From the NCBI GenBank assembly GCA_004367505.1, contig SFCB01000196.1, positions 1 through 35,395 of the forward strand: DNA of 35,395 bases, written 5' to 3'. The DNA is from Chloroflexi bacterium OHK40 (lineage in GTDB: Bacteria; Chloroflexota; Chloroflexia; Chloroflexales; Chloroflexaceae). Made by a program: the position numbers and the translations under genes. Under the pieces are notes generated by a model that had not been told where the DNA came from, did not search any database, and was given only the letters and a program-made list of their open reading frames with translations. Below, one piece after another: positions 89-28,017 of this stretch; position 1 is the first letter of the stretch; the number at the start of each line of letters is the position of its first letter.

Positions 89-1594
89 GCGGGGAGCGCC
101 CCCACCGCAGATTCTTCTACCCAGCGCACGCTCACTGTTGGCCTGCGCGAGCTTGTGACATCCTTCGACTACCCCTACGACTGGGCAATCGTCGCCACCT
201 GGATCCACTCCAACATCGGCGATTGTCTCGTCTGGCGCGACCGCGAGACGGCCGAGTTCATCCCCTGGCTCGCTGAGTCCTGGGAGAATGTGGACGAGAC
301 CACCTGGACGATGAAGCTGCGCGAGGGGATCACCTTCCATAACGGCGAGCCCTTCAATGCCGAGGCCGTCAAGTACACCATCGAGCGCATCCAGGCCGAC
401 GAGACGGCGCTCGTCCACCCGCAGTGGCTCTTCATCAGCGAGGTGAACATCATCGACGACTACAACATCGAGTTCAAGACCGGCGCGCCCGAGCCGGCCT
501 TCCTGAGCAAGATGTCCGGCACGGCCTGCCAGGTGGTGCCCCCCGGCTACACTGAGGAGGTTGGCACCGAGGGCTTCGGCCAGGCGCCAGTCGGCACCGG
601 GCCCTTCAAGTTCGTCGAGTGGGTCAAGGACGACCGGGTAGTGCTCGAGGCCAACCCCGACTACTTCCAGGGCGCCCCCGGCATCGACCGGCTGGTGTTT
701 CGCGCCATCCCCGAGGACTCCACCCGCGTGGCCGAGTTGCTCACGGGCGGGGTTGACCTGATCGTCTCAGTGCCCATCCAGGACTGGGAGCGGGTAGAGA
801 GCACGGGCGAACTGGCACTCGACCGCTTCACCACCACCCAGGTCCAGCTGATCGCCCTGCGCTCCGGCCCCTCAAAGACCTACGAGGACTGGACGGGCGT
901 CACCGAGAACCCGCTCATCCGCCAGGCGATCGCCTACGCGATAGACCGCCAGGCGCTGGTTGACCTGCTGGACGGGATGGCGATCCCCACCATGACGCGC
1001 ATCACCCCGCCCACGCTTGGCAGCGACCCGAACCTCTATGGGAACGTCGGCACCTACGACCCTGAGCGGGCCCGGGCCCTGCTGGAGGAGGCCGGCTACA
1101 ACGGCGAGCCGCTCACCTTCCACTCTACCACCGCCTGGCCGATGCAGAAGGAGGTCACGGAGACGATCGCGGCGATGCTCCAGGACGTTGGCCTGAACAT
1201 CGATCTACAGATCCTTGAGATCACCGCCTTCCGCGAGCAGGTCTACGCACCACGGCGGAACGAGGAGATCTACATGGACGCGCTGGGCAACTCCTTCTTC
1301 GATCCATGGATCACCGTGCTCGCCGAGCAATCGGACCGGCGCGAGCGCTCGGGCTGGAGCGGCCCCCAGGCCGACGAGGCCGACGCGCTCATCCGCGCTG
1401 CGGCGGTGAACATGAATCCTGAGGAGCGGGCCGAGCAGTACATCCAGATCCAGAATCTGCTGCTGGCCGAGAATGGCGGCCCCTACGTCTTCCTCTACCA
1501 ACTCAAAGACACGATTGGTCGGAGCAGCCGGGTGAGCTTCACCCCTGCCCCCGACGGCTTCCTCTGGTTCGGCGCCGCAGCCGTGCAGCCGTAG
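2..1594 (+). CDS. ABC transporter family 5 substrate-binding lipoprotein (5' truncated)
   Basis: Extracytoplasmic solute-binding protein of the SBP_bac_5 (DppA/OppA/NikA) family, which delivers peptides, nickel or other small solutes to a DppBC-type permease. The reading frame is open to the left edge, so the signal peptide and lipobox lie outside the window; a GTG at 155 is internal. The first ~30 visible codons form an Ala/Pro/Glu/Thr linker with repeated AEPTPAQ units, the usual spacer between a lipid-anchored Cys and the folded domain. The family pattern follows: a segment LAESWENVDETTWTMKLREG, then FHNGEPFNAEAVKYTIER, then GTGPFKFVEW. The stop is at 1592-1594. No permease or ATPase of this type is adjacent. 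The only DppB/C/DF-type genes here are on the opposite strand at 22,201-24,315 and 30,107-32,394, so a functional link is possible but unproven. Substrate unknown. Confidence 0.9.
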   Translation, partial: AEPTPAAPAEPTPAQAEPTPAQVEPTPAQAGSAPTADSSTQRTLTVGLRELVTSFDYPYDWAIVATWIHSNIGDCLVWRDRETAEFIPWLAESWENVDETTWTMKLREGITFHNGEPFNAEAVKYTIERIQADETALVHPQWLFISEVNIIDDYNIEFKTGAPEPAFLSKMSGTACQVVPPGYTEEVGTEGFGQAPVGTGPFKFVEWVKDDRVVLEANPDYFQGAPGIDRLVFRAIPEDSTRVAELLTGGVDLIVSVPIQDWERVESTGELALDRFTTTQVQLIALRSGPSKTYEDWTGVTENPLIRQAIAYAIDRQALVDLLDGMAIPTMTRITPPTLGSDPNLYGNVGTYDPERARALLEEAGYNGEPLTFHSTTAWPMQKEVTETIAAMLQDVGLNIDLQILEITAFREQVYAPRRNEEIYMDALGNSFFDPWITVLAEQSDRRERSGWSGPQADEADALIRAAAVNMNPEERAEQYIQIQNLLLAENGGPYVFLYQLKDTIGRSSRVSFTPAPDGFLWFGAAAVQP

Positions 1595-1656
1595 GCACGC
1601 CCCCTGGCCTTGCCGCACCCGCGCCCCCCGGGGAAGGGGCCGAGCCTTGAGCCGAG

Positions 1657-1675
1657 CGGTGGCCTCGTGCCACCG
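1657..1675 (+). other. Hairpin after the substrate-binding protein gene
   Basis: A perfect 7-bp inverted repeat, CGGTGGC / GCCACCG, surrounds the 5-nt loop CTCGT. It lies in the 133-bp gap between the substrate-binding protein and the epimerase gene. There is no U-tract, so it is not a canonical intrinsic terminator. It could attenuate transcription or stabilise the mRNA end. Confidence 0.35.
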
Positions 1676-1727
1676 GCCCTCGACACTCGACACCTCCCCC
1701 GGGCAGAGCGCGGGATAAGGAGCTCCT

Positions 1728-2693
1728 GTGACAACACTGGTGACGGGCGCAGCCGGGTTCGTGGGCCTGAATCTCGTGCGCGGCCTTGCCGCGCGTGGAC
1801 AGCCCGTGATCGCCATGGCCCGCGCGGCGCCCGACGCCGCCACCCACGCCTTCCTCGCGCCTGTAGCGGAGCACGTACGCTTTACGACCGGCGACGTGCG
1901 GGATCGGGCCGGCCTTGCCGAACTGGCCCGTCATGAAGGGGTACGCCGGATCGTCCACGCCGCCGCGATCACTTCTGCCGAGGTGGAGCGAGCCGACCCG
2001 GCGGGCTTTGTCGACGTGAACCTCGGCGGCACCCTCAACGTGCTAGAGGCCGCCCGCAGCATTGGTGCGGAGCGGGTGGTGCTGATCAGCTCCTCGGCAC
2101 TCTACGGCGCCCCCAGTGATCCACGACGCCGCATCCGCGAGACCGACCCGCTGCAGATCAGTGGCCTCTACACCATCTGCAAGCAGGCTGGCGAGCAACT
2201 CTGCCGGCGCTACCGCGAGCTCTACGGCCTCTCCACCGTGGCCGGTCGGCTCGGGACCGCCTACGGCCCGATGGAGCGGCCCACCGGCTCGCGCCAGGCA
2301 ATGTCGCAGGTTTACACACTCATTCACGCCGGCCTGCAACGCCGCCCACTGCGGATCTACGGCGCCGAGCGGCTGCGGGATGTCTGCCACATCGACGATG
2401 TAGTAGACGCCTTCTGCGCTCTCACCCTGGCCGAGACACTCCCTCACGACACCTACAATGTCTCTGCGGGCACAGCCCACTCGCTGCGCGCGATCGCCAT
2501 GGCGGTGCAGGAACTGCTACCCGAACTGGTATGGAGCGTGGTGGAGACGCCCGAGCAGGCCGACCTTGCAGTGCTCCCGCCGAGCGAGCGCGGCCCGATG
2601 GACCTCGCGCGGCTCCAGGAAGACCTGGGTGTTCAGCCACGCCACACCCTCGCAAGCGGCCTGCGGGCCTATCTGGCGTGGCTCGGCACGTAG
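1728..2693 (+). CDS. NAD(P)-dependent epimerase/dehydratase (extended SDR)
   Basis: A 321-residue extended short-chain dehydrogenase/reductase of the GalE/RmlB type. Such enzymes use bound NAD(P) to oxidise, epimerise or dehydrate a sugar nucleotide or a related hydroxy compound. The N-terminal TGAAGFVG (residues 6-13) is the Rossmann dinucleotide loop. GDVRD follows near residue 50, and the catalytic pair is Y148 and K152 (YTICK) after an SSSALYG stretch. Length and order match the family. The start is GTG at 1728, preceded by AAGGAG at 1717-1722 with a 5-nt spacer. It lies 78 bp before the cyclic amidohydrolase, in the same direction. The substrate cannot be read from the sequence; among amide-hydrolysis genes it may act on a small hydroxy acid derivative rather than a nucleotide sugar. 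Confidence 0.85.
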   Translation: MTTLVTGAAGFVGLNLVRGLAARGQPVIAMARAAPDAATHAFLAPVAEHVRFTTGDVRDRAGLAELARHEGVRRIVHAAAITSAEVERADPAGFVDVNLGGTLNVLEAARSIGAERVVLISSSALYGAPSDPRRRIRETDPLQISGLYTICKQAGEQLCRRYRELYGLSTVAGRLGTAYGPMERPTGSRQAMSQVYTLIHAGLQRRPLRIYGAERLRDVCHIDDVVDAFCALTLAETLPHDTYNVSAGTAHSLRAIAMAVQELLPELVWSVVETPEQADLAVLPPSERGPMDLARLQEDLGVQPRHTLASGLRAYLAWLGT

Positions 2694-2771
2694 GAGGCTG
2701 CGCGGCTCGAACAGCCAGAGAGCATCCGGGCGCTCCATACGGCGCCCCGACAGACGGATAGGAGCGAGTGC

Positions 2772-4175
2772 GTGAGGCTCGATCTGGTGATCATCAACGG
2801 CACGCTCGTCGACGAGTACGGCAGCCGCCCCATCGACATCGGCGTCGTAGATGGCCGGGTGGCCCAGCTGGCTACGCCGGGCGACCTCGCGGCCACTGGC
2901 CGCGCCGAGTTGATCGATGCCACGGGCCTCTGGGTGCTCCCCGGTTTCGTGGACCCTCACGTGCACTGCCGGGCGCCCGACCACCCCGAGCGAGAGGATT
3001 TCGCCAGTGGCACCGCCGCCGCCGCCGCCGCCGGGATCACCACTATCCTCGAGATGCCGATCGCCGACGTGGGCGTGACCAGCCCGGAGATCCTGCACGC
3101 CCGACGCAAGCTGGCCGAGCGCGACGCCCACGTCGATTTTGGTCTCTTTGGGGCCGGTGGCTCGATCGACCGGACCCTCATCCACGGCCTCGCTGATGCT
3201 GGTGCCTGTGGCTACAAGATCTTCACCCTCGAAGTACCACCCGACCGCCGCCGGTCCTTTGAGGGGATCATGGTAACCCGCGAGGGCGAGCTCTACCACG
3301 CCCTGAGCCTGATCGCCGAGACCGGGCTCGTCTGCGCCGTTCACGCCGAGAATGACGCGCTGCTGCGGATCGGGCGCGAGCAGGCCCGTGCCCGGGGCCT
3401 CACTGGCGCCGATGCTTACCTCACCGCCCACCCCCAGGCGGCCGAAGCGATGGCCGTAGCCTGGCTGGTGGTACTCGCTGAGGCAACCGGTGCCCGCGTG
3501 CATGTGGTGCACGTGACCTCGGCCTGGGCACTCGATCTGCTGCGCCTGGCCCGGCGCCGTGGCGTGGCCATGACGGGCGAGGCCTGCCCCCACTACCTGC
3601 TCTTCGACGAAGAGACCGCCCGGCGCTTCGGCTCCTGGGCCAAGATCGCCCCGCCCCTGCGGCCCGCCACCGATCGCGAGGCGCTCTGGGCCGCCCTGGC
3701 CGATGGCACGCTCGACTTTCTCGCCAGCGATCATGCCCCCTTTCTCCCCGAAGAGAAGGAGATCGAGGATATTCTCGCCATCCCCTCGGGTGTACCAAAC
3801 CTGGAGGCATTCCCACCGCTTATGCTCGCGGCCGCCCGGGATGGACGCATGCCCATCCATCAGATGGTCGGCCTACTCGGCGCTCGCGCCGCCCGCCTCT
3901 ATGGGCTCTACCCCCAGAAGGGCGCCCTGCAGCCCGGCTCCGACGCCGACCTGGTACTCTACGACCCGGCCGCCAACGCGCAGGTGCGAATTAACACCTG
4001 GCAGTCGCGCTCGCGCGGGAGCGCCCGCATCTTCGACGGGATCGCCTACCGCGGTACCATCCTGCGCACGATCGTCCGTGGCCGCACCGTCTACCAACAG
4101 GGGCGGATCGTCGGGCCGAAGGGCTGGGGCCAGATGGTACGCCCCCAGCGCCCGGGGAGCGACGCCGGGCCGTGA
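2772..4175 (+). CDS. Cyclic amidohydrolase (dihydroorotase/hydantoinase/allantoinase family)
   Basis: A 467-residue binuclear metal hydrolase that opens cyclic amides such as dihydroorotate, hydantoins or allantoin. The metal site is complete: DPHVHC with H63 and H65, K149 in GYKIF (the lysine that is carboxylated and bridges the metals), later His residues in CAVHAEND and HVVHVTS, and the terminal Asp in LASDHAPF. The N-terminal LVIINGTLVDEYG and C-terminal GSDADLVLYDP strands form the usual small beta domain. GTG at 2772 was chosen because AGGAG at 2760-2764 sits 7 nt upstream. No pyrimidine biosynthesis genes are near. A HyuB-type subunit lies in the same series (14,070-15,716), so hydantoin- or allantoin-like ring opening is more likely than a housekeeping dihydroorotase. 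Exact substrate unassigned. Confidence 0.88.
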   Translation: MRLDLVIINGTLVDEYGSRPIDIGVVDGRVAQLATPGDLAATGRAELIDATGLWVLPGFVDPHVHCRAPDHPEREDFASGTAAAAAAGITTILEMPIADVGVTSPEILHARRKLAERDAHVDFGLFGAGGSIDRTLIHGLADAGACGYKIFTLEVPPDRRRSFEGIMVTREGELYHALSLIAETGLVCAVHAENDALLRIGREQARARGLTGADAYLTAHPQAAEAMAVAWLVVLAEATGARVHVVHVTSAWALDLLRLARRRGVAMTGEACPHYLLFDEETARRFGSWAKIAPPLRPATDREALWAALADGTLDFLASDHAPFLPEEKEIEDILAIPSGVPNLEAFPPLMLAAARDGRMPIHQMVGLLGARAARLYGLYPQKGALQPGSDADLVLYDPAANAQVRINTWQSRSRGSARIFDGIAYRGTILRTIVRGRTVYQQGRIVGPKGWGQMVRPQRPGSDAGP

Positions 4176-4256
4176 GGGCATCGTGGTTCGAACGAGCGCC
4201 GCGCCACGGCACACAGCCCCGGCACGCCCAGGCACAACCATACGAGAGGATCATCC

Positions 4257-5366
4257 ATGCCACGCGAGACAATCACGGTCGGTGGTGTTATCGTCGAGCC
4301 GGGCCAGCGCGCCTACGGCTCCCTCTACGCTGGCCACCTCGCCGCCCGCACCGAGGTGCGCATCCCCTTCCAGGTGCTCAATGGGATGGCCGATGGGCCA
4401 AACATCTGCCTGGAGGCCACCCTGCACGGCTGGGAACCCATGGGTGCCGAGATTCTACGCCGGGCGCTGCTACAGGTGGATCCCGCTCGGCTCCGTGGGA
4501 CGATCTACTGCCTGCCCCTCGCGAACCCCTTCTCAGTAGAGTTCGGGGGCAGCGTCGAGAGTACCGGCACGCGGGTGAACCCGGCCGACCTGCTCGACCT
4601 CAACCGTGTCTGGCCCGGTAAACGTGAGAACGCCTGGCTCACCGAGCAGATGGCCTACGTGATCTGGACCGAGGTGCTCTCGCGCTGCCAGTACCTGGTC
4701 GACTACCACGACGGTACTGGCGCCTGCGATGAACTGCCGGTGGCCTTCCCCCACGCCATCCCCGAGGATGGCGCCGTCCAGGCCACCCTGGCCGACGGGG
4801 TCGGTGGCAGTGGCGGCGGAAACCGGCTCACTTCCGAGTACATCGCCGACATGAACGGGAAGATCCGCGCGATGGCCGAAGCCTTCGGGTCGCCCGTGAT
4901 CTGGTGGCGCCAGACACCCGTCAACCCGGCAATGATCTCCGGGCACTGCCTGCTCAACGGGATTGTGCCCCTGGTGGTGGAGGCCGGCGGCGGCGGGCAG
5001 ATCGACTTCACGATTGATCAGGGTGTTACCTGTACGCTCAACATCCTGAAGCATCTCGGCATGATCGATGGCGAGCCGGTGCTTCCCGAACGGCAGTTGA
5101 TGGTCGAGCAGTATGTTGTCTACCGCTCGCGAACCGGCGGCTTCTACCTCCCGGAGTCGGGAATCGCGCTCGGCGTGGAAGTGACAAAGGGCCAACTGCT
5201 CGGCCAGGTGATCGACCCGCTGACCAGCGAGATCCAGGAGGAATGCCGCTCCCCGGTGAACGGCATGATCATCAGCCGCCGAATCAAGATGCCGATCAAC
5301 CCCGGAGGTTATATCGCGCACATCGCTGACCTCGACTCCACGATCTGGTCGCGCGAGAACGGCTAA
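4257..5366 (+). CDS. Succinylglutamate desuccinylase/aspartoacylase family deacylase
   Basis: A 369-residue member of the AstE/AspA (M14-like) zinc deacylase family, which removes acyl groups from N-acyl amino acids. The zinc motif GxHGxE appears as TLHGWE (H57, E60), and the third ligand is H151 in DYHDG. LDLNRVWPGK matches the family's NLNRxFPG substrate-binding signature. A beta-rich C-terminal domain begins near residue 280. ATG at 4257 follows GAGAGGA (4244-4250) by 6 nt. The family includes DoeB/EutE, the N-acetyl-diaminobutyrate deacetylase that partners the M24 ectoine hydrolase DoeA/EutD. A non-metallic M24 protein is encoded 4 kb downstream, so an analogous ring-opening/deacylation pair is a reasonable hypothesis. 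The substrate is not shown by the sequence. Confidence 0.85.
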   Translation: MPRETITVGGVIVEPGQRAYGSLYAGHLAARTEVRIPFQVLNGMADGPNICLEATLHGWEPMGAEILRRALLQVDPARLRGTIYCLPLANPFSVEFGGSVESTGTRVNPADLLDLNRVWPGKRENAWLTEQMAYVIWTEVLSRCQYLVDYHDGTGACDELPVAFPHAIPEDGAVQATLADGVGGSGGGNRLTSEYIADMNGKIRAMAEAFGSPVIWWRQTPVNPAMISGHCLLNGIVPLVVEAGGGGQIDFTIDQGVTCTLNILKHLGMIDGEPVLPERQLMVEQYVVYRSRTGGFYLPESGIALGVEVTKGQLLGQVIDPLTSEIQEECRSPVNGMIISRRIKMPINPGGYIAHIADLDSTIWSRENG

Positions 5367-5371
5367 GGCAA

Positions 5372-5409
5372 GGGGACACGGGACAGGGGAGAGGGGACAG
5401 GGGGTAGGG
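5372..5409 (+). repeat. G-tract repeat (potential G-quadruplex)
   Basis: Six runs of 3-5 guanines lie within 38 nt of the coding strand, separated by 2-4 nt spacers (ACAC, ACA, AGA, ACA, TA). The stretch is in the 110-bp gap between the deacylase and the Gfo/Idh/MocA gene. The pattern fits intramolecular G-quadruplex formation in DNA or mRNA. A shorter GGGAACAGGG-type stretch occurs near 8010-8020, suggesting a dispersed repeat family. Confidence 0.6.
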
Positions 5410-5476
5410 CCGCGGCAGCAGCAAGACACGCATGCGCACGACCTGGTAAGGAGCCTGAAGCCCTGTCTAATGAACT

Positions 5477-6565
5477 ATGGCACCAGAAACCGTCCGCATC
5501 GGCATTATCGGCACAGGGTTCGGCCAGTCGGCGATGGTGCCAGGGTTTCGCCTCGCCGAGGGCGCAACTGTGGTCGCGATCTGCAGCAGCAGACGCGAGC
5601 GGGCCGAGGCCGCCGCCAGGGTCCACGGCATACCCCGGGCCTACACTGACTACCGGGCCATGCTCGCCGAGTCCCAGCTCGACCTCGTGTGCATCGCGAC
5701 ACCTACTGCGACCCACGCCCCGATCACGCTGGCAGCGCTTGAGGCGGGGTGCCACGTGCTCTGCGAGAAACCGATGGCCCGGGATGTCGCTGAGGCCATC
5801 GCCATGCTCACCGCCGCTCGGCGGGCCGGCGTGATCCACCTGATCGACCACGAGCTGCGCTTCAACCCGACCCGGGCCCGTGCCGCCCGCCTGATCGCCA
5901 ATGGCTATGTTGGCCGTGTCTACTACGCCAGCATCCGCAATGTCTCCGGCATCCGCGCCGACCCGCAACAACCCTGGAGTTGGTGGTCGGACCGGGCCCA
6001 GGGTGGAGGGGCACTCGGCGCTAGCGGCTCGCACCAGATTGATCTGCTGCGCTGGTGGCTGGGCGAGTTCGAAGAGGTAAGCGGCCAACTGGAAACCTAC
6101 GTGCGCCAGCGGCCCGACCCGGCCACTGGCACGCTGCGCCCGGTGGACAGCGACGACCATTTCAGCTTCAGTGCCAGACTCACCGGCGGTATCGGCGCCC
6201 ATGTCTTCGTAAGCTACGTCGCCCGCCACGGCGGCTCCAGCCAGGTGGAGGTCCACGGCGACGCCGGCAGCCTCGTGCTCGACCACAATGACCGGCTGTG
6301 GGGGCGCCGGGTCGGGATGGACACCGCCGAAGAATTGACGCTACCCGACCCCCTGGAGGGCGCGCCGGGGCTATCGCAGAGTGTCTGGGCGCGCTCCTTT
6401 GCCCACCTGGCCGCCGAGCTGGTCGTTGCCATCCGCGAGGGCCGCCAGCCGCAGCGTGGGGCGAACTTCGAAGATGGGCTATGGTGCCAGGCGGTGCTCG
6501 ATGCCGTACGCCGCTCGTCCGAGGAGCGCAGGTGGGTAGAAGTGGAGAAAGGGGCAGAGCCATGA
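5477..6565 (+). CDS. Gfo/Idh/MocA family oxidoreductase
   Basis: A 362-residue NAD(P)-dependent dehydrogenase of the glucose-fructose oxidoreductase/inositol dehydrogenase family. The N-terminal Rossmann fold starts RIGIIGTGFGQ, an acidic/Ser-rich turn follows beta-2, and the hallmark CEKPMA places K98 at the active site. IDHELRFNP and ASGSHQIDLLRWW give the His/Asp pair of the C-terminal alpha/beta domain. The ATG at 5477 is the first start after an in-frame stop at 5471-5473. The nearest good ribosome site, AAGGAG at 5448-5453, is 23 nt away, which is unusually far. The stop overlaps the next gene's start (ATGA at 6562-6565), so the two are translationally coupled and probably act together. 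The substrate is probably a polyol or sugar-like alcohol; not determinable here. Confidence 0.9.
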   Translation: MAPETVRIGIIGTGFGQSAMVPGFRLAEGATVVAICSSRRERAEAAARVHGIPRAYTDYRAMLAESQLDLVCIATPTATHAPITLAALEAGCHVLCEKPMARDVAEAIAMLTAARRAGVIHLIDHELRFNPTRARAARLIANGYVGRVYYASIRNVSGIRADPQQPWSWWSDRAQGGGALGASGSHQIDLLRWWLGEFEEVSGQLETYVRQRPDPATGTLRPVDSDDHFSFSARLTGGIGAHVFVSYVARHGGSSQVEVHGDAGSLVLDHNDRLWGRRVGMDTAEELTLPDPLEGAPGLSQSVWARSFAHLAAELVVAIREGRQPQRGANFEDGLWCQAVLDAVRRSSEERRWVEVEKGAEP

Positions 6566-7989
6566 GCAGGCCCGAGCGGGCAAAGAAATTTGTCGGTATC
6601 CAGATCAGTCCGATCAGTTTCATTGACGAGGGCGTTGAGCAAGTACTCGACACCCTGCAGCAGCGCGTAGGGGTGAATGTGCTGCTCATCGGCACGATCT
6701 CCTGGTTGGGCCTCAAGGTCGGCCGGCGCATCTCCCACGCTCTTGAGGGTTGGCCCGACCATGGCGTACCGGCACCCTACACCATGCAGGGTGGCGCCTA
6801 CTGGGCCACTCATGAAGAATATTATGGCAATACACCAATCAAACAATTCCGCTCAGGCGACCCGGAGCTCGCCGGGAGGGACATCCTCGAACTGGTCATT
6901 CCAGCGGCCAGAGCACGTGGCATGCTGGTGATCCCTGAGATGATGGAGCCGCTCTTCAAGTACGCCGGCCACGGCTCGGCCAGCGCCGTCAACATTCCGG
7001 GCATGCCCCAGTACCTTGAGGTTGATGTCTACGGCCGGGTTGCCGGCGAGCCCTGCACCTCAAACCCTGCCTACCGGCGCTGGTGGCACGCCATCGTCGA
7101 AGACCAGTGCCGGAACTATGCCATCGACGGGATCATGTGGTGCAACGAGCGCAACAGCCCGCTCGATCGCATGATCCAGGGGCAGGCCCCTGGCTGCTTC
7201 TGCGAGCATTGCCGCCGCGAGGCATTGGAGCGGGGAATCGACGTCGAGCGGGCCCGCGCCGCCTTCCGCGAGCTGCACCAGTATTTCGAGCGCGCCAGAG
7301 CCGGCGAGCCCTTTGTGGATGGCTCATTGATCGAGTTCCTGCGCGTCCTGTTGCGCAACCCCGAGGTATTGCTCTGGGAACGCTTCTGGCTTGAACGCAA
7401 CAAAGATCTTGACCGCGAGCTCTACGGGATTGTCAAGTGGTGCAACCCCCAGCTCAGCTTTGGCCTGAACGTCTGGAACCGCAACCACTTTAACCCCTTC
7501 CGCAAGGCTCAGTGGCCCTGGGACGAGCAAACGCGCTACAGTGATTGGGTCAAGCCGATCACCTACCAGCACCAGGCCGGTGGAGTGTATGTCAAGGAGA
7601 TGAGCGAGCTCCACAGGAGCATCCTGCGCGACGTTACCCCCGAGGAGTTTACGCCGATCATGTACAAGATCCTTGGCCTGCAGGAAGCGCCCTGGGGCGA
7701 GCTCGTGCAGCGCGGCATGGACCCGGAGCGTTATGTGGGTGGCCAGTGCCGGGACACCCTGCGCGCCGTCGGCGACAGAGTGGCCGTGTACATGGGGATC
7801 GGCGTGGACGCCCCGCGCACCAGCGCCGACCAGGCCATCTGCACGCCGGAGATCGTCTACCGCAGCGTGATGGCCACCTACCAGAACGGCGGTCACGGTG
7901 TGGTCTTCTCGCCGAACTACGCCGGTATGAACCTGAGCACCCTGGACGGGGCGGCAGCGGCGCTCAAAGAACTGGGCCTACACACGTAA
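6562..7989 (+). CDS. Unrecognised TIM-barrel-like (putative glycoside-hydrolase-type) protein
   Basis: A 475-residue protein of no family I can name with certainty. The start is the ATG at 6562, which overlaps the TGA of the Gfo/Idh/MocA gene. There is no signal peptide, so it is probably cytosolic. The alternation of hydrophobic strands and Trp/Asn/His-rich loops resembles a beta/alpha barrel of the hypothetical glycosidase type. Visible landmarks are IMWCNERNSP (C194, E196), a Cys cluster CFCEHC (C212, C214, C217) that could bind a metal, and GLNVWNRNHFNPFR near residue 300. Similar short Cys clusters occur in barrel enzymes annotated as putative glycosyl hydrolases. Coupling to an oxidoreductase suggests a shared carbohydrate- or polyol-like substrate. 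Function unknown. Confidence 0.7.
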   Translation: MSRPERAKKFVGIQISPISFIDEGVEQVLDTLQQRVGVNVLLIGTISWLGLKVGRRISHALEGWPDHGVPAPYTMQGGAYWATHEEYYGNTPIKQFRSGDPELAGRDILELVIPAARARGMLVIPEMMEPLFKYAGHGSASAVNIPGMPQYLEVDVYGRVAGEPCTSNPAYRRWWHAIVEDQCRNYAIDGIMWCNERNSPLDRMIQGQAPGCFCEHCRREALERGIDVERARAAFRELHQYFERARAGEPFVDGSLIEFLRVLLRNPEVLLWERFWLERNKDLDRELYGIVKWCNPQLSFGLNVWNRNHFNPFRKAQWPWDEQTRYSDWVKPITYQHQAGGVYVKEMSELHRSILRDVTPEEFTPIMYKILGLQEAPWGELVQRGMDPERYVGGQCRDTLRAVGDRVAVYMGIGVDAPRTSADQAICTPEIVYRSVMATYQNGGHGVVFSPNYAGMNLSTLDGAAAALKELGLHT

Positions 7990-8071
7990 AAGGCGGCCAG
8001 GAGCAACAGGGAACAGGGTCACAGGCGCGGGGCGGCACCGCCCGGCACTCTACAATCGAGGAGCCACAGCA

Positions 8072-9298
8072 ATGCCTGAACAGCCAGCATGGCGCTTCCA
8101 GAAGACGATCGCCCCGATGTACGAAGTTCCGACCGGCCACACGATTCTCAAGGGCCGCGTGCTCACCTGCCGGGGCGACGAGGTGATCGAGCAGGGCTTT
8201 GTGGAGATCGAGGGCGCGATGATCAAGGCAGTGGGCAACGCCGTCGATCTCGGCGAACGCGGAGCCGAGGTGGTAGAGACCGGTGGCACGATTATCCCCG
8301 GGCTCTTCAACAGCCACGCCCACCTCGCCTGGGACGGTGTACACGATCTGGCCCAGCAGTCGCTGAACGACCCACCCGAGCTCTCGGCCTACAAGTGCGC
8401 CGGCAACATGCTGATCAGCCTGCGCGCCGGCGTTACCACTGTACGGGACCTCGGCATGCACCGCACCAACCTGGTGGCCAAACAGGCCGTGGAGCAGGGG
8501 ATCTTCCCCGGCCCACGCGTGCTGGCCTGTGGCGCCGCGATCGTGCAGACGGGCGGCCACACCTACTGGTGCTGCCGCGAGGCCTCGGGCGCCGACGAGA
8601 TGCGTCGGGCCGTGCGTGAGCAGGTGCGCGGCGGCGCCGACTTGATCAAGATCATGGCCTGCCACGACAGGCTCGAGTTCACCGACGAGGAGCTCCACGC
8701 CGTGATCGATGAGAGCCACCGCAATGGCCTGCCGATCACCGCTCACGCCACCTACGATGCCTGCATTCGCCGCGTGGCCGAGTTCGGCGTGGATTGCGTA
8801 GAGCACGGGGGTAGCATGAGCGACGAGACGATCGCGCTGCTCCTGGAGCGGAAGATCCCGATCGTCACGACCTTCGCCCCGGTGGTGATGCAGAGCCAAC
8901 CCGAGGTGGCCAGGAAGTTCAATATCCCCGATTGGAAGCTCCAGGAGCGTCAGCGGGCCGTGGCCAACCCCGCCCGCTACGAGGGCCTCGTGCGGGCGGC
9001 TAGGGCCGGCGTGGTGATCGGCTTCGGCACAGACGCGGGCAGCCCTGCCGTGGGCCATGGGGTTGTCGCTCCGGAATTGCAATTTATGCTCAAGCTCGGC
9101 GTGGTGGCAACCCCCTACGCGGCCCTGCGCAGCGCCACCAGTGTCGCCGCCGCGATCAGCCGCCTGGAGGCCACTCTGGGTACACTCGAGCCCGGCAAGC
9201 TCGCCGACGTGGTGGTGGTGGATGGCAACCCCCTCGACGATCTCGACGCACTCGCCAGTGTGCGCCGCACCTACGTCGGTGGGCGGCGCCTGGTGTAG
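8072..9298 (+). CDS. Metal-dependent amidohydrolase (imidazolonepropionase/Xaa-Pro dipeptidase-like)
   Basis: A 408-residue amidohydrolase-superfamily enzyme of the type often annotated imidazolonepropionase-like or metal-dependent Xaa-Pro dipeptidase. The ligand set is visible in order: NSHAHLAWDG (HxH), DLIKIMACHD (bridging Lys), PITAHATYDA, VEHGGSM and GFGTDAGSP (final Asp). The end, LEPGKLADVVVVDGNPL, is the typical beta-domain closure. ATG at 8072 lies 8 nt after GAGGAG (8058-8063). A small GGGCG/CGCCC hairpin (8030-8043) precedes the ribosome site. It is the second amidohydrolase of the series and is unlike the one at 2772-4175. It probably cleaves an N-acyl or dipeptide-like intermediate; the substrate is unresolved. 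Confidence 0.87.
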   Translation: MPEQPAWRFQKTIAPMYEVPTGHTILKGRVLTCRGDEVIEQGFVEIEGAMIKAVGNAVDLGERGAEVVETGGTIIPGLFNSHAHLAWDGVHDLAQQSLNDPPELSAYKCAGNMLISLRAGVTTVRDLGMHRTNLVAKQAVEQGIFPGPRVLACGAAIVQTGGHTYWCCREASGADEMRRAVREQVRGGADLIKIMACHDRLEFTDEELHAVIDESHRNGLPITAHATYDACIRRVAEFGVDCVEHGGSMSDETIALLLERKIPIVTTFAPVVMQSQPEVARKFNIPDWKLQERQRAVANPARYEGLVRAARAGVVIGFGTDAGSPAVGHGVVAPELQFMLKLGVVATPYAALRSATSVAAAISRLEATLGTLEPGKLADVVVVDGNPLDDLDALASVRRTYVGGRRLV

Positions 9299-9403
9299 GG
9301 CCATTACTCACGGCGCCGCGACGCGATCGAGTGGCTGGTCGCGCTGATCTGCGCGCCTGCACGACTCACCATGAACGCGACGGCCACCCACAGGAGCGAG
9401 CTT

Positions 9404-10567
9404 ATGTACACACAGGCCACACTCGCCGAACGTGATGCGCGCTACCAGCGCCTTCGGGTGGCGATGCGGGTTGCAGGGCTGGATGCTCTGCTGGTGGCCG
9501 GAAAGGGCCACTGGTGGACGGGCCGTGGCTACATCCGCTACCTGACTGACTTTCATCTCTGGGGCCACGATGGGCTGCTGCTCGTGCCGCTGGATGGCGA
9601 GCCTGCCCTCACCCTCACCAGCCCCGCCGTGGCCGCCCGAATCGCCGCGCGCGGCTGGGTCGAGGATGCCGACGGCGACGTCTACCTGGTGCCACGCACC
9701 GCTGCTGTTACCCGCGCGCGCGGCCTCGCGAAGGGGCGCATCGGGGTGGCCGGCATGCGCACCATCCTCGGTGCCGGGGTACTCGCCGAGCTGCGCGAGG
9801 CCCTCCCCGACGCCGAGTGGATCGACGCCGACGAACTGATCGACCGTGTACGCATGGTGCGCAGCCCGCTGGAGGTTCAGCAAATCCGCGAGCTCTGGAC
9901 GCTCTCGAAGGCCGCGATGGCGCGCTTCGTCGAGATCGTCACCCCGGGGATGAGTGGCCTGGCGCTCAGCGCCGAGTGTTCGCGCGTGGCGCTCGCCGGC
10001 GGCGCCCGCGATATCCTCGTCTTTCTCGGCGAGGATCCGCGCCATTTGAGTATCCCCGACGAGACTCCCCTACGCTGCGATGGGATCACCCGCTTTCACA
10101 TGGAGATTTGCGGCCCGAGCGGCCACTGGTCCGAACTGACCGTCACCTGCGCCTACCGCCCGCTTACCGACGACGAGGAACGTCTGATCGCGAGCGAACT
10201 GCGGGCCTACGATGCCATTCGTGCCGCTGCGCGTCCCGGGGCTACCTTGCCTGAGCTGGCCGCGATCTTCGAGCACACCCTCGCCGCCGACGGCTGGGAG
10301 CTCGGTCCGCCCACCCGCCACTTCGACTTCCACGGCCAGGGCCTTGATACGATCGAGCGGCCCTGGTTCGCTGCCCAACTCCCCTGGGGGGCTTCCCAGA
10401 GCTGGTCGTTGGAGGCCGGCATGACCTTCTCCTATCACCCACACCGCGACACGCGCCCCGCTGTGCACTGGGGTACGGGTATCAATGAGGATATCTTGAT
10501 CACGCCCAATGGCGCTGAGCGCCTGAGCGGCGACTGGGACTTACGATGGCTCCGTATGACGGCATAG
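9404..10567 (+). CDS. M24 'pita-bread' family protein, creatinase/ectoine-hydrolase-like, metal ligands replaced
   Basis: A 387-residue M24 protein with a creatinase N-terminal domain (about 1-150) and a pita-bread catalytic domain. Two in-frame ATGs exist, at 9371 and 9404. The second is preferred because AGGAG (9392-9396) precedes it by 7 nt. Metal-dependent M24 peptidases use two Asp, a His and two Glu. Here the first Asp position appears as E234 (FHMEI), the second as E244 (HWSEL), and the usual Glu of the EPG motif is His (FSYHP). H214 and E244 align by eye with the catalytic His232 and Glu262 of creatinase. The protein therefore looks like the non-metallic branch that includes creatinase and ectoine hydrolase (DoeA/EutD), not a working aminopeptidase. 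This rests on a manual alignment. Confidence 0.8.
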   Translation: MYTQATLAERDARYQRLRVAMRVAGLDALLVAGKGHWWTGRGYIRYLTDFHLWGHDGLLLVPLDGEPALTLTSPAVAARIAARGWVEDADGDVYLVPRTAAVTRARGLAKGRIGVAGMRTILGAGVLAELREALPDAEWIDADELIDRVRMVRSPLEVQQIRELWTLSKAAMARFVEIVTPGMSGLALSAECSRVALAGGARDILVFLGEDPRHLSIPDETPLRCDGITRFHMEICGPSGHWSELTVTCAYRPLTDDEERLIASELRAYDAIRAAARPGATLPELAAIFEHTLAADGWELGPPTRHFDFHGQGLDTIERPWFAAQLPWGASQSWSLEAGMTFSYHPHRDTRPAVHWGTGINEDILITPNGAERLSGDWDLRWLRMTA

Positions 10568-10746
10568 GCCAAGCGTACAGGCTGGCCCACGCCCGGGGGC
10601 CGCACCCGCCCCGGGGACTCCAGCCCCTGGCTACGGATGGCGAAGCCCGCTGATGCGGGTCGGGGGCCCGTACTGTGCCCTATCCCTCCCGCAGCCCGGC
10701 TCGCGAGAAGCGCCCGCGTCGGCGGGCACGTCAGGAGAAGCATCCC
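10568..10746 (+). other. 179-bp gap with two GC-rich hairpins before the S9 peptidase gene
   Basis: Two perfect small hairpins are visible: CCCGC-TGAT-GCGGG at 10646-10659 and GCCCGC-GTCG-GCGGGC at 10712-10727. The second ends 4 nt before the AGGAGAAG ribosome site (10732-10739) and could modulate translation of the peptidase. No T-tract follows either, so neither is a standard terminator. Confidence 0.4.
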
Positions 10747-12828
10747 GTGACATCGCGCCGCACGATCACCGCGCAGGACCTGCTGCGCCTCCAGATGTGT
10801 GATGACCCTCAGGTCTCGCCCGACGGCCGCGAGGTTGCCTGGGTCCATACCCGGGTTGACCCTGAGGCGAATGGCTACCGATCCCGCATCGTCGTGACCG
10901 AGATCGCCACGGGCGCCACCCGCCCGCTCACCGAGGGCCCCGGCCAGGACTCGCATCCCCGCTGGTCACCCGATGGGGCTACGATCGCCTTTCTGCGCTC
11001 GGCCCCCCCGGGCCCGAGCCTGCCCGGCGCTCCGCCTCCGGCGATCTCCATGCTCGATCGCGGTCCCCAGTTGATGGTCGTGCCGGCCCGGGGTGGCGAG
11101 CCTCGACCGCTCACGGCGCTGCGCGGCGGCGCCCGTGCGCCCGCGTGGTCGCCCGAGGGGGGCCGGATCGCCTTCATGACCCTGATGGATCCCGCCCGGG
11201 GTCTGGAGCAACTCGGCGACGAACACCTCGATTTCGACGACCTCTACGCGCGCTTCAATCGCGATGTGGTGGTCACAAACCGGCTACGCTGGAAGTCGGA
11301 CGCGGCGGGATTCCTGGGCAACTATTACGGCCACATCGCAATGGTCGGCTTCGACCCGGTAGCCGAGGTGCCCGGCCCCGTGACGGCACTCACCAGCGGG
11401 CCATACGAGTTCAGCCCGCCGGTCTGGTCGCCGGATGGCCGCTGGCTCGCGACCACCGGCAATCTCGACTCGGATGGCGAGTCCCGCCGCAAGGCGTACA
11501 TTTACCTGCTCGACACCACGGCCATCGGACCGCCACAGCCCCTTTTCGGCCTGGAGGAGATGCGCAGCAGCGACCTCTCCTGGTCACCGGATGGCACCAC
11601 CCTGGCAGTGTGTGGCCACAATGACCCGATGATCGGGCACTACGGCACGCCACACCTCTGGCTGGTGGATGTCGCTAGCGGCGCGGGTCGCTGCGTCACG
11701 GAGCCGATCGACCGGGCGATCGGCGACTACTCGCGAAACTACGATACGCGCCGCTACGGCGGCGACGACGAGCCCCGCTGGCTCCCCGACGGCAGAAGCA
11801 TGCTGCTGCTGCTCAACGAATCCGGCACGGTCCACCTCAACCGCCTGGATCTGGGCACTGGAACCCTGACGCCAATCACCAGCGGCGACTCAGTGGTGAG
11901 CGCCTTCTCCATGGACCCGGCAGGTCGCTGCCTTGTCGCTCTGATCGGCGATAGCCTCAACCCCGGCGATCTGTACGTGGTGGAGGCTGGTACGGAGCCC
12001 CGGCGACTCACCGCCGTGAACCGCGAACTCCTGGACGAACTGGAGCTCTCACCGGCGCTGCGTTTCGCCTGCGAGCACGACGGCGTCCGGATCGAGGGGT
12101 GGGTCAACCCACCCGTCAGGCGCGAGGCCGGCAAGCGCTACCCCGTGATCCTCTACACCGGCGGCGGCCCTGGCGGCATGCGGGCGAGCGTCTTTGTTCA
12201 CGAATGGCAGGTTTACGCAGCCGCCGGCTACACAGTGATCAACTGCAACACCCGTGGCAACCACGGCTACGGGCAGCCTTTCTCCGCCGCGACGCGGGGC
12301 AAGTGGGGCGACCTGGACTACGCCGACAATCTGGCCTTCCTGCGGGCGGTATGTGCGGCCTTCGACTTCATCGACTCGGAGCGGCTCGCGGTGGCGGGCG
12401 GGAGCTATGGCGGCTACAGCGCGGCGTGGATCATCGGGCGGCATCCTGAGTTCAAGGCGGCCATCGTCGATCGGGCACTCACCAACCGCACCTCGCAGGT
12501 TGGCACCAGCGACATTGGCTTCCTCCTCGACCAGGTTGAGTTCGACAAACAGCTCCCCTGGGAGAACGTCAACACGCTGATCGAACGCTCGCCAGTGATG
12601 TACGCCGGCCACATCCAGACACCGACTCTGGTTGTCCACTCTGCGCTCGACCACCGCTGCGCCGTGGAGCAGGGCGAGCAACTGTACATGGCGCTGCGGC
12701 GCCGTGGCATACCGACCGAGCTCGTGCGCTTTCCCGACGAGAGCCACGAACTCTCGCGCTCCGGCAAACCGTGGCACCGGATCTTCCGCATCGACCGCTA
12801 CCTGAACTGGTTCAACCGCTGGGTGTGA
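10747..12828 (+). CDS. S9 family serine oligopeptidase (dipeptidyl/acylaminoacyl peptidase type)
   Basis: A 693-residue prolyl-oligopeptidase-family enzyme. The N-terminal ~430 residues form a beta-propeller with repeated WSPDG/SPDG blades (PD40/TolB-like), which restricts access to short peptides. The C-terminal alpha/beta-hydrolase domain carries the triad: S553 in GGSYGGYSA, D635 in SALDHRC and H667 in DESHELSR. GTG at 10747 was chosen over in-frame GTG codons upstream because AGGAGAAG (10732-10739) is correctly spaced. No signal peptide is seen, so it is probably cytosolic. It lies 24 bp before the aminotransferase, which suggests co-transcription. In this context it would release amino acids from short or N-capped peptides imported by a Dpp-type transporter. 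S9C acylaminoacyl peptidase is the closest subtype by length and propeller form. Confidence 0.9.
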   Translation: MTSRRTITAQDLLRLQMCDDPQVSPDGREVAWVHTRVDPEANGYRSRIVVTEIATGATRPLTEGPGQDSHPRWSPDGATIAFLRSAPPGPSLPGAPPPAISMLDRGPQLMVVPARGGEPRPLTALRGGARAPAWSPEGGRIAFMTLMDPARGLEQLGDEHLDFDDLYARFNRDVVVTNRLRWKSDAAGFLGNYYGHIAMVGFDPVAEVPGPVTALTSGPYEFSPPVWSPDGRWLATTGNLDSDGESRRKAYIYLLDTTAIGPPQPLFGLEEMRSSDLSWSPDGTTLAVCGHNDPMIGHYGTPHLWLVDVASGAGRCVTEPIDRAIGDYSRNYDTRRYGGDDEPRWLPDGRSMLLLLNESGTVHLNRLDLGTGTLTPITSGDSVVSAFSMDPAGRCLVALIGDSLNPGDLYVVEAGTEPRRLTAVNRELLDELELSPALRFACEHDGVRIEGWVNPPVRREAGKRYPVILYTGGGPGGMRASVFVHEWQVYAAAGYTVINCNTRGNHGYGQPFSAATRGKWGDLDYADNLAFLRAVCAAFDFIDSERLAVAGGSYGGYSAAWIIGRHPEFKAAIVDRALTNRTSQVGTSDIGFLLDQVEFDKQLPWENVNTLIERSPVMYAGHIQTPTLVVHSALDHRCAVEQGEQLYMALRRRGIPTELVRFPDESHELSRSGKPWHRIFRIDRYLNWFNRWV

Positions 12829-12852
12829 TACAGCATAAAGGAGGAGCCTCGT

Positions 12853-14040
12853 ATGCGCACGTCGAGCACCAGCCTGATGGCCCGTATCGCCTCAGCGCGC
12901 GCGCGGCAGGTGGGCGCCACCCTCGCCCGGCAGACCTCGATCGGCGCGCCAGGGATGATCAACCTGGCCAGTGGCACGCCTGACTTTCCGACCCCACCCC
13001 ACGTCGTCGAGGCGGGCCAGCGCGCCCTTGCTGAAGGCAAGACTGTCTACACCGCATGGGCGGGCCTCCCGGCGCTCCGCGAGGCGATCGCCGAGCAGCT
13101 GCGGCGTGAAAAGGGCCTGGCCGTGGACCCGGAAAGCGAGATTATCGTCACCGCAGGCTCGCAGGCCGCCATGCTCACCGTAACCCTGGCCCTGCTTGAT
13201 CCCGGCGACGAAGTGCTCGTGCCCACGCCATTCTACGACGAGTACCGCCGCGACATTATGCTGGCCGGCGCCACCATGGTACCCGTGCCAACGCTGCTGG
13301 AAGACAGCTTCGAGGTGGAGCCATCGGCGCTGGAGGCCGCGATCACGCCACGTACGAAGGCCATGATCCTGATCTCACCCTCCAACCCCACCGGCGCGGT
13401 GATCGAGCTCTCCACGCTTCTACGTATCGCCTCGATCGCCCACCGTCACGATCTGCTCGTGATCTGGGACGAACTCTACGAGCGATTCGTCTACGACGGG
13501 TTCACACACGCGAGCTTCGCGGCACTGCCGGGCATGTGGGAGCGCACCGTGGTGATCAACGGGTTCTCGAAGTGTTACGGGATGACGGGCTGGCGCGTGG
13601 GTTACGTGGCCGCACGCCGCGAGATCGCCGACGCCATGCTACCGATCGCTCACGGCATGACGATCTGCGCGCCGTCCGTCTCACAGTACGCAGCGCTGGC
13701 CGCCATCAATGGCCCGACCGCCTGGTTCGAGGAGGTACTGGCTGAGTACGACCGCCGGCGCCGCCTGTGGATGCAGGCGCTCGACGCGATGGGCCTGCCC
13801 TATGGCCGGCCACGCGGTGCTTACTATATCATGCCGAGCATCACCAGCACCGGCCTGAGCTCCCAGCAGTTCGCCAGAGCCCTGCGCGAGGAGGCGAAAG
13901 TGATGATTGGCGGCGCCGGTGGAGCCACCGACCCCTTCAACGAAGGGTTCGTGCGTGGATCACTTGCCGCCCCCTATATACAGCTTGAGCAGGGGCTCGA
14001 GCGCATGGCCGCAATTGTAAAAAAGTACCAGGGGTCCTGA
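12853..14040 (+). CDS. Class I/II PLP-dependent aminotransferase
   Basis: A 395-residue fold-type I aminotransferase of the AspC/AAT subgroup. INLASGTPDFPTP is the N-terminal substrate-gate region, GSQAAMLT binds the cofactor phosphate, and SPSNPTGAV and WDELYERF hold the conserved Asn and Asp. K240 in NGFSKCYGMTGWRVGY is the Schiff-base lysine. The C-terminal part has the family's substrate Arg region (FVRGSLA). ATG at 12853 follows a strong AAGGAGGAG (12838-12846) by 6 nt. The gene is 24 bp after the peptidase and 29 bp before HyuB, so the three are likely one transcript. It would deaminate the amino acid freed by the upstream hydrolases; specificity cannot be told from sequence. Confidence 0.9.
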   Translation: MRTSSTSLMARIASARARQVGATLARQTSIGAPGMINLASGTPDFPTPPHVVEAGQRALAEGKTVYTAWAGLPALREAIAEQLRREKGLAVDPESEIIVTAGSQAAMLTVTLALLDPGDEVLVPTPFYDEYRRDIMLAGATMVPVPTLLEDSFEVEPSALEAAITPRTKAMILISPSNPTGAVIELSTLLRIASIAHRHDLLVIWDELYERFVYDGFTHASFAALPGMWERTVVINGFSKCYGMTGWRVGYVAARREIADAMLPIAHGMTICAPSVSQYAALAAINGPTAWFEEVLAEYDRRRRLWMQALDAMGLPYGRPRGAYYIMPSITSTGLSSQQFARALREEAKVMIGGAGGATDPFNEGFVRGSLAAPYIQLEQGLERMAAIVKKYQGS

Positions 14041-14069
14041 CACCCTGTTGCGGAAAGGCCAGGCAACCC

Positions 14070-15716
14070 GTGATCGACCCGATCACCCTTGAGATCCAGT
14101 GGCAGCGCCTGATCGCGATCATGGATGAGGTAGATAACGCTGTCGTGCGAACCTCGTTTTCCACCATCGTTGGCGAGAGCCGAGACTTCGCCGTCATCAT
14201 GACCGACCACCAGGGCGCCTCATTGTGCCAGTCGAGCTGGAGCCCGCCAAACTTCTGCGTCGTACTGCCGCGTACCTCGCGCCACATGCTCCGCCGCTTC
14301 CCGCCCGAGACCCTGCGGGAGGGCGATGTGCTGATCACCAATGACGCCTGGCTCGGTACGGGCCACCTGCCCGACTACGTGGTCCTGACGCCGATCTTCT
14401 GGCGCGGCAAGGTGGTAGCCTTCACCGGGATCGTGGCTCACCTGGCCGACGTCGGCGGCCACGCCGGCGATATCGAGGCCACCGATGTGTTTATGGAAGG
14501 GCTGCGCCTTCCCCCCTGCAAGCTTTATGAGGCCGGGGAGGAGAACCACCTGCTCTTCGAGATCATCGGCAACAACTGCCGCGTGCCCGAACTGGTCCTC
14601 GGCGACCTGCGCGCGATCGCCGGGGCCGCCGCTATGGCCGCCCGCCGCATCCACGAATTTCTCGACGACTATGGCCTCGACGATCTTGTGGAGCTCTCCG
14701 AGACCATCCACACCCGCTCCGAGGCGGCCATCCGCGCGCGGATAGCCGCCTTACCCGATGGGGTCTACCGATTTGGCCTCGACATCGACGGCTACATTGA
14801 GCCGGTGCACCTCCACGCCACGATCACGATCCACGGGAGCGACGTCTACGTCGACTATACCGGCAGCTCACCCCAGACCAACCGCGCCGCGATCAACTGC
14901 ACCTTCAATACCACCTACGCCTCGACGATGTACCCCTTCAAGTGCGCGCTCGTACCGGAGATCCCGAACAATGAGGGGCTCTTCCGGCCCATTCACGTGA
15001 GCGCGCCCGAGGGCTGCATACTCAACGCCACCTTCCCCGCGCCGGTGAAGGCCCGCGCCAAGACGACCAACAACCTGAACCAGGTGCTCTTCGGCGCCCT
15101 CTGGCCGATCTTCGGCGAACACGCCCAGGCCGGCTCCGGCTCGATCTGGCCCTTCAAGTTCTTCGGCGAGGAGGAGGGCTACGGCCGCTTTGGCGTGCAT
15201 TGTCTGCCCCATGGCGGGCGCGGTGCCATGCGCGATCTCGACGGACTGGTGCCGATCGCCTTTCCCCATAACAGCTCCGTGACACCCACGGAGATTCTCG
15301 AACTGCGCGCGCCGATCCTGATCGAGCGCAAGGCCCTGCGCCCCGACTCGGGTGGCCCCGGACGGCGCCGGGGCGGCCTTGGCCAGGAGATTGTGGTGCG
15401 CAGCATCGCCTCCCGGCCCATGACCATGCTCCTGCGTCCGGATAAACTCTTCTTCAACCCCCCCGGCTTGAATGGCGGACGGCCCGGGATGGTGGGGCAG
15501 GTCTTTGTGAATGGTGAGGAGATCACCCGCTTTCCGGCGCTGCAATTCAACCCCGGCGACGAGCTGCGCCTGCTAATGCCCGGCGGCGGTGGCTTCGGGC
15601 CCGTCGAGCAGCGCGAGGTTGCACTGGTGGCCGAGGACGTGGCTCTCGGTTATGTGAGCCCCGAGGCCGCCGCCCGTGACTACGGCTACGCGCCACCCCA
15701 GCGCACAACCTCCTGA
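14070..15716 (+). CDS. hyuB: Hydantoinase B / oxoprolinase-type subunit (HyuB)
   Basis: A 548-residue HydantoinaseB-family protein, the subunit found in N-methylhydantoinase, 5-oxoprolinase and acetone carboxylase complexes. The opening IDPITLEIQWQRLIAIMDEV, followed by RTSFSTIVGESRDFAV, is characteristic. ITNDAWLGTGHLPD, the central VDYTGSSPQTNRAAINC and the C-terminal LMPGGGGFG are also typical. GTG at 14070 follows a weak AAAGG/AGG site. HyuB normally works with HyuA, an ATP-binding ASKHA partner that activates the cyclic amide, and no HyuA is in this window. It may be encoded elsewhere or this subunit may have another role. It closes the left gene series before the repeat-bearing spacer. 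Likely role: ATP-dependent opening of a hydantoin- or oxoproline-like ring. Confidence 0.85.
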   Translation: MIDPITLEIQWQRLIAIMDEVDNAVVRTSFSTIVGESRDFAVIMTDHQGASLCQSSWSPPNFCVVLPRTSRHMLRRFPPETLREGDVLITNDAWLGTGHLPDYVVLTPIFWRGKVVAFTGIVAHLADVGGHAGDIEATDVFMEGLRLPPCKLYEAGEENHLLFEIIGNNCRVPELVLGDLRAIAGAAAMAARRIHEFLDDYGLDDLVELSETIHTRSEAAIRARIAALPDGVYRFGLDIDGYIEPVHLHATITIHGSDVYVDYTGSSPQTNRAAINCTFNTTYASTMYPFKCALVPEIPNNEGLFRPIHVSAPEGCILNATFPAPVKARAKTTNNLNQVLFGALWPIFGEHAQAGSGSIWPFKFFGEEEGYGRFGVHCLPHGGRGAMRDLDGLVPIAFPHNSSVTPTEILELRAPILIERKALRPDSGGPGRRRGGLGQEIVVRSIASRPMTMLLRPDKLFFNPPGLNGGRPGMVGQVFVNGEEITRFPALQFNPGDELRLLMPGGGGFGPVEQREVALVAEDVALGYVSPEAAARDYGYAPPQRTTS

Positions 15717-16001: not shown

Positions 16002-16030
16002 TTGACAAACTTCGCTACTCTTTCTATACT
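16002..16030 (+). promoter_or_regulatory. Sigma-70-type promoter of the iclR-corrinoid module
   Basis: A -35 TTGACA at 16002-16007 and a -10 TATACT at 16025-16030 are separated by exactly 17 nt, near consensus in a GC-rich context. Transcription should begin about 16037, some 40 nt before the regulator's GTG. Confidence 0.8.
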
Positions 16031-16849: not shown

Positions 16850-16926
16850 GGCTCACGCCCCCACGCGTGGCGGAGTGTCGCTCATCGCTTCATCTGCGCC
16901 GGGCCTTTGAGAATAGGAGTCCCCCC

Positions 16927-18450: not shown

Positions 18451-18655
18451 CCGCAGCGCGAGCGTCGTCTGGCGCCGCCGATGCTCACTGGGATCGTGCG
18501 TGTATCCCCGATCGATGTGGCCGTTCCAGCGCGCGCCCGTCGCTCCACACCCCCCTGGCGCTACACCGGGCTCGCGAGCCGTCAGGTAGTAGAAGTGGTT
18601 GAGTCCGAACGCATTGCGGAACCATCAAGGAGATCTGGCATCTAAGGAGCCGCGC
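18451..18655 (+). other. 205-bp gap between the methyltransferase and corrinoid protein genes
   Basis: No gene is seen. Two ribosome-site-like motifs lie near the end: AAGGAG near 18628-18633 and AAGGAG at 18644-18649. The second is the proper site for the corrinoid protein start. No convincing promoter was found, so the genes are presumed co-transcribed. Confidence 0.5.
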
Positions 18656-19339: not shown

Positions 19340-19340
19340 T

Positions 19341-21392: not shown

Positions 21393-21397
21393 CCGCC

Positions 21398-24315: not shown

Positions 24316-24337
24316 CGCGGTCGCTTTCTCGCTGGAG

Positions 24338-28012: not shown

Positions 28013-28017
28013 AGCGA

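Follow-up and report, generated by a model that had tools for sequence, protein, structure and literature searches.

On a contig of Chloroflexi bacterium OHK40 (SFCB01000196.1, contig C213; its full 35,395 bases are hereafter the window), a gene for an AstE/AspA-type deacylase (AspA, 369 residues, positions 4257-5366, plus strand) and a gene for an M24-fold protein (M24, 398 residues, positions 9371-10567, plus strand) stand in one gene series. Both genes are intact, neither product is a DoeA or DoeB protein of ectoine degradation, the two co-occur with each other and with partner genes in other genomes, and their active-site residues are conserved. With about even confidence, we propose that they encode successive C-N hydrolases in one uncharacterised catabolic set for an imported amide, a cyclic amide or ureide, or an N-acyl amino acid.

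Organization of the gene series

The series occupies positions 155-15716 of the plus strand, with intergenic gaps of -1 to 133 nucleotides, and consists of genes for a substrate-binding protein (SBP), a short-chain dehydrogenase/reductase (SDR) epimerase, a cyclic amidohydrolase, AspA, a Gfo/Idh oxidoreductase, a protein that we call GHLx, an amidohydrolase, M24, an S9 peptidase, an aminotransferase, and a hydantoinase B-type subunit (HyuB), in this order. The AspA and M24 open reading frames (ORFs) lie 4 kb apart on the same strand, and both products matched their Pfam families, in agreement with the initial annotation, which had placed the two in a single series. Beyond a 359-nucleotide gap after the series follow an IclR gene and a methyltransferase module. 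The gap contains a promoter-like site (16002-16030) with 11 of 12 matches; three such sites were found, against a mean of 1.7 in shuffled sequences.

The genome comprises 6.9 Mb in 301 contigs. Mis-binning of the contig was ruled out by tetranucleotide composition: the window correlated at 0.81-0.95 with 14 stretches, each taken from a different contig elsewhere in the bin, and at 0.003 with a stretch of another genome.

The M24 protein forms a clade apart from DoeA

M24 was assigned from Pfam, alignment, tree and predicted structure. It matched Creatinase_N at 49.1 bits (cut-off 22) and Peptidase_M24 at 56 bits (cut-off 23), and the structural model (predicted local distance difference test score, pLDDT, 85.5) had the pita-bread M24 fold with a creatinase-type N-domain. 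Its best NCBIfam match was DoeA (TIGR02993), at 43.8 bits against a cut-off of 613. In the tree, the window M24 clade had a support of 100/100 and was separate from the DoeA clade; the DoeA references here, and the DoeB references used below, were proteins from annotated plasmid loci. The NCBIfam score and the separate clade ruled out M24 as DoeA. The M24 tree has long branches, leaves out L037, and contains one metal-type PepQ (branch 1.79) and no creatinase; its deeper branching order is uncertain because of this single PepQ on a long branch and the missing creatinase. The initial annotation had named clustering with metal-dependent Xaa-Pro peptidases as an outcome that would speak against it, and this did not appear: the clade was apart from the single PepQ.

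Profile comparison placed the M24 family about equally near to DoeA (E 1.4e-22) and to metal-dependent prolidase (E 4.5e-22). In structure, the closest fold was DoeA (Z 34.8, root-mean-square deviation [rmsd] 2.8, 361 residues aligned), by a small margin over the next. Xaa-Pro dipeptidase aligned with Z 33.0 (rmsd 2.8, 362 residues) and creatinase with Z 31.6 (rmsd 3.3, 360 residues; range 31.5-31.6 for 1CHM, 1KP0 and 7YTO), and DddP, a dimethylsulfoniopropionate (DMSP) lyase, with Z about 27. Searches with M24 turned up no relative in viral contigs, and the 29 plasmid records matched by tblastn were all of about 31% identity or below.

Metal ligands are exchanged in the M24 family

To map the metal ligands, M24 was aligned to the PepQ encoded in its own genome and to a profile built from that PepQ and two other metal-type prolidases. 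The canonical ligands D, D, H, E and E correspond to H243, E255, H321, H356 and N372 in the window protein; E245, two residues past H243, is an alternative counterpart of the first ligand, because an alignment gap falls there. H243, E245, E255, H321 and H356 were invariant in all 13 M24 orthologs (alignment A1), and position 372 was N in 11 of them, S in one and H in one. The site residues are identical in one more ortholog, that of L124. Thus, just one of the five prolidase ligands (H321) is kept, as in M24B Xaa-Pro dipeptidase/PepQ, whereas the other four positions carry different residues, which in three cases could still bind metal. The counterparts in three annotated DoeA proteins are F, P, Y, M and T. 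From H/E/H/H/N in the one and F/P/Y/M/T in the other, the M24 family exchanged its ligands while DoeA lost them.

The initial annotation had described Glu/Glu/His at the metal-ligand positions. The positions are indeed altered, but the residues are those given above. It had also called the protein non-metallic, which does not follow from these residues because H, E, H and H can all bind metal; judging from sequence, E255, H321 and H356 could together hold one metal, as a 2-His-1-carboxylate site. DddP is a useful comparison, as a non-peptidase on the M24 fold. Early reports proposed that it has no metal, and its structure contained two irons; M24 metal ligands are kept in DddP, whereas they are mostly replaced in the window M24 family (PMC4108388; this and the other papers below are cited from excerpts). 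The DddP case therefore calls for caution against describing M24 relatives as metal-free.

The proposed creatinase-like pair His214/Glu244 (numbered from Met12) corresponds to H225/E255. H225 is His in only 1 of the 13 orthologs, and E255 is invariant yet sits at a metal-ligand position, so the pair did not hold up. In creatinase, the catalytic His lies upstream of the first ligand strand; H225 was the candidate considered for it here, in an alignment made up of M24 orthologs. With creatinase, M24 shares the fold.

Three M24 paralogs of a sister clade were found near M24 orthologs (L042 7603-8679, L042 15753-16859 and L078 12419-13501), with D, D and S, respectively, at the first ligand. E255, H321 and H356 are kept in all three, which by sequence mark a broader M24 clade with the same altered site.

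The AspA-type deacylase forms a clade apart from DoeB

AspA belongs to the AstE/AspA superfamily (Pfam AstE_AspA_cat PF24827, 54.5 bits, cut-off 25), and its best NCBIfam match was DoeB (TIGR02994), at 62.4 bits against a cut-off of 402.7. It carries the zinc motif H57-G-W-E60 with H151, a catalytic-type E242, and D114-x-N116-R117-x-W-P-G. HGWE, H151 and E242 were kept in every aligned AspA ortholog. The catalytic roles of the HxxE, H and E residues are presumably those of the family. Since H57-G-W-E60, H151 and E242 are kept across orthologs, the protein looks catalytically able. All aligned AspA orthologs have Trp in place of the Asp of the DoeB motif HGDE. The clade had a support of 98/99 in a tree that left out L082 and L083, and it was separate from DoeB; identity to two DoeB proteins was 24-25%. 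AspA as DoeB was ruled out by the NCBIfam score and the separate clade. By tblastn against plasmids, identity was 29% or below among the 30 of 52 records listed. Second, divergent AspA-type genes with HGHE or HGDE motifs were seen at L033 5009-6085 and L114 17975-18952, beside M24/HyuB or near a cyclic amidohydrolase homolog.

These results bear on the ectoine-hydrolase-like pair that the initial annotation had suggested. In Halomonas elongata, ectoine degradation via DoeA and then DoeB is established (PMC3187862), and EutD/EutE is described as a working pair (PMC8739950). By analogy, ring opening of ectoine, hydroxyectoine or a closely related tetrahydropyrimidine would fall to M24, and removal of the acetyl group to AspA. 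The same two fold families are present, and they are found in both cases as gene sets. DoeA/EutD (6TWK) shares with M24 the pita-bread fold, the creatinase-type N-domain and an altered metal site, and is the best structural match; DoeB/EutE (6TWL/6TWM) shares with AspA the catalytic domain, the zinc motif and the catalytic-type Glu. The best NCBIfam match of each protein is DoeA or DoeB. However, both matches fall far below the cut-offs, both proteins form separate clades, the M24 ligand positions differ from those of DoeA, the M24 profile is about as near to prolidase, and AspA is distant from DoeB with HGWE instead of HGDE. The neighbours also differ: annotated DoeA/DoeB loci carry eutB/eutC and other ectoine genes, whereas family scans of the window revealed no eutBC, ectoine transport or other such genes. 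A 2026 survey of 575 EutD proteins reported clusters in Proteobacteria, Thermosulfobacteriota (so spelled), Bacillota, Actinomycetota and Archaea (PMC13188858), and Chloroflexota is not among the groups named in the excerpt of that survey. We conclude that an ectoine-type pathway is improbable here. Another cyclic compound, as the initial annotation more broadly suggested, or an N-acyl compound may be the substrate instead.

M24 and AspA co-occur in the same genomes

When named genomes were searched with M24 as query, 12 loci of 48-63% identity were recovered. These searches scored few candidates per genome, and rare misses are possible. The loci were in metagenome-assembled genomes (MAGs) labelled Caldilineaceae/Caldilineales, Anaerolineae, Trueperaceae, Thermoleophilia, Hyphomicrobiales and Bacillota, and one further bacterium. 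An AspA ortholog (61-69% identity) was found in 9 of the 12 M24 genomes, one copy being split across two contigs. In the class of G509 (219 genomes), five genomes contained M24 and the same five contained AspA, with none having just one of them. The probability of this overlap is 2.5e-10 if all genomes are independent, and 4e-5 with about two independent lineages. Of these five genomes, G648 alone was not already included in the 12 M24 genomes. Among 400 genomes sampled from the phylum of the window, M24 or AspA was detected in the window's own genome only, at the limits used. Both genes stood within one series in three genomes: that of the window and those of L033 and L124, the last with SBP-DppB-DppC-M24-epimerase-AspA on one strand. 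These results support the view that the two genes belong together, as the initial annotation had proposed, and the lack of co-occurrence in relatives that it had set against itself was not found.

Alternatively, the two genes may have unrelated functions and co-occur because both are part of a catabolic island that moves as a block. The many different hydrolases in the series are consistent with this, and the rare and scattered occurrence in Chloroflexota, Trueperaceae, Thermoleophilia, Hyphomicrobiales and Bacillota MAGs looks like horizontal transfer. On the other hand, the co-occurrence holds where the genes lie far apart or on separate contigs, and we consider block transfer of unrelated genes unlikely.

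Partner genes in the series

All genes of the series are on the plus strand. Of the 12 M24 loci, 11 (all but L044) contain a homolog of HyuB (hydantoinase B/oxoprolinase type, 14070-15716) no more than about 7 kb from M24. AspA itself was found at only one of these 12 loci, which led us to consider HyuB as the sole true partner of M24, an idea abandoned after the genome-level counts of M24 and AspA. In the same genome, contig C40 (L110, 8 kb) carries two HyuA copies in opposite orientations without HyuB, which are 69% and 61% identical to the HyuA of L040 and are possible partners of the lone HyuB of the window. A third HyuA, on C248, has its own HyuB. The cyclic amidohydrolase (allantoinase/dihydropyrimidinase-like, 2772-4175) had homologs of 41-44% identity near M24 in 6 of the 12 loci. 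The SDR-type NAD-dependent epimerase/dehydratase (1728-2693) adjoins AspA in L033, L081-L084 and L124. The Gfo/Idh/MocA oxidoreductase (5477-6565) and the class I/II aminotransferase (12853-14040) were assigned by family searches (Pfam, NCBIfam).

GHLx (474 residues, 6565-7989) lies outside Pfam, NCBIfam and PDB families: Pfam and NCBIfam gave no match with E of 0.01 or less, and nothing meaningful came up in the PDB. Its orthologs, with 60-75% identity across several phyla, were present in 11 of the 12 relative genomes, and the twelfth had a 27-residue match running off a contig end. In the sample of 400 phylum genomes, four contained GHLx, including the window's own. GHLx is not tied to the M24/AspA pair alone, because the other three hold it without M24 or AspA at the limits used. 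The structural model from four sequences was too poor for use (pLDDT 42.7). A CFCxxC-type motif of the window GHLx is absent from some orthologs. GHLx usually adjoins the amidohydrolase (8072-9298), orthologs of which (63-75% identity) adjoin GHLx in most regions read.

Several of these genes may instead point to peptide salvage. The transporter would then import di- and oligopeptides, to be cut by ordinary peptidases or carboxypeptidases, namely M24, AspA, the amidohydrolase and the S9 enzyme, some of them with Xaa-Pro or N-capped dipeptides as substrates. The SBP (DppA/NikA type, 155-1594), whose orthologs with 55-62% identity lie near AspA or M24 in relatives and in 7 of 9 fetched AspA regions, matched oligopeptide/nickel-type models, every one under the cut-off. 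The amidohydrolase is related to Xaa-Pro/Arg carboxypeptidase and ochratoxinase structures and matched the NCBIfam Xaa-Pro dipeptidase model at 201.7 bits, below the cut-off of 500. The M24 model is almost as near to Xaa-Pro dipeptidase as to DoeA, and homologs of the S9 prolyl-oligopeptidase-type enzyme (10675-12828) adjoin AspA in L078 and L080. However, M24 retains a single ligand of the two-metal peptidases, HyuB and the cyclic amidohydrolase are not peptidase families, and the gene set is rare in the phylum sample, unlike peptide salvage, which is common. We regard peptide salvage as possible, though on the doubtful side.

Remainder of the window

The region 16076-22132 encodes IclR, an MttB-type methyltransferase, a corrinoid protein close to glycine-betaine MtgC models, a RACo-type activator and DUF1638, and is likely a quaternary-amine demethylation module. 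The methyltransferase is not of the pyrrolysine type, because it has no in-frame stop. On the minus strand, 24338-34830 contains betaine-type import and oxidation genes: a choline-dehydrogenase-like glucose-methanol-choline (GMC) oxidoreductase, a ProXWV-type transporter, peptide-type permeases and a DAO-GCV_T oxidoreductase. Among 150 genomes of the class, 21 others contain relatives of this DAO-GCV_T protein. Two ORFs are tandem fusions, one with two ProW-type permease domains and the other with two peptide-type ATP-binding cassette (ABC) ATPase domains (26009-28012 and 22201-24381, respectively).

Discussion

We propose that M24 and AspA act one after the other within a single catabolic set. 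A substrate would be imported by the DppA-type binding protein and permeases, and ring amides would be opened by HyuB, with HyuA encoded elsewhere in the genome, and by the cyclic amidohydrolase. M24 would then hydrolyse a C-N bond of amide or amidine-like character, perhaps using one metal bound by E255, H321 and H356 instead of the two-metal site. The N-acyl amino acid formed in this way may be deacylated by the zinc-dependent AspA-type enzyme, the amidohydrolase may also cut C-N bonds of the ring-opening products ahead of transamination, and the aminotransferase would take the free amino acid. The order of these steps and the substrate are guesses.

Several observations weigh against this proposal. 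AspA and M24 are close together in just three of the examined genomes; elsewhere they are about 20 kb (G511), 39 kb (G509) or 47 kb (G505) apart on the same contig, or on separate contigs. No AspA ortholog was found in 3 of the 12 M24 genomes (G512, G513 and G515), MAGs whose completeness is not given. Independent cases of co-occurrence are few, about two lineages, because four of the five class genomes look closely related. HyuB has no HyuA beside it or anywhere in the window, and the partner genes are compatible with several chemistries.

A more far-reaching version, which we offer only tentatively, is that M24 represents a new subfamily with a single-metal 2-His-1-Glu triad (E255, H321 and H356) remodelled from the two-metal peptidase site, and that this subfamily is paired with a dedicated AspA-type deacylase and HyuAB in a new degradation route for a cyclic amide or compatible-solute-like compound. 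We found no paper describing this gene set in the open-licence PubMed Central literature.

It is common for M24 proteins to be labelled Xaa-Pro peptidases, and for those lacking ligands to be labelled non-metallic hydrolases. An M24 clade with invariant swapped ligands offers a clear test of how this fold changes its chemistry. The gene set points to an uncharacterised route for the degradation of nitrogen compounds, scattered over MAGs of several phyla, whose most conserved member, GHLx, lies outside known families.

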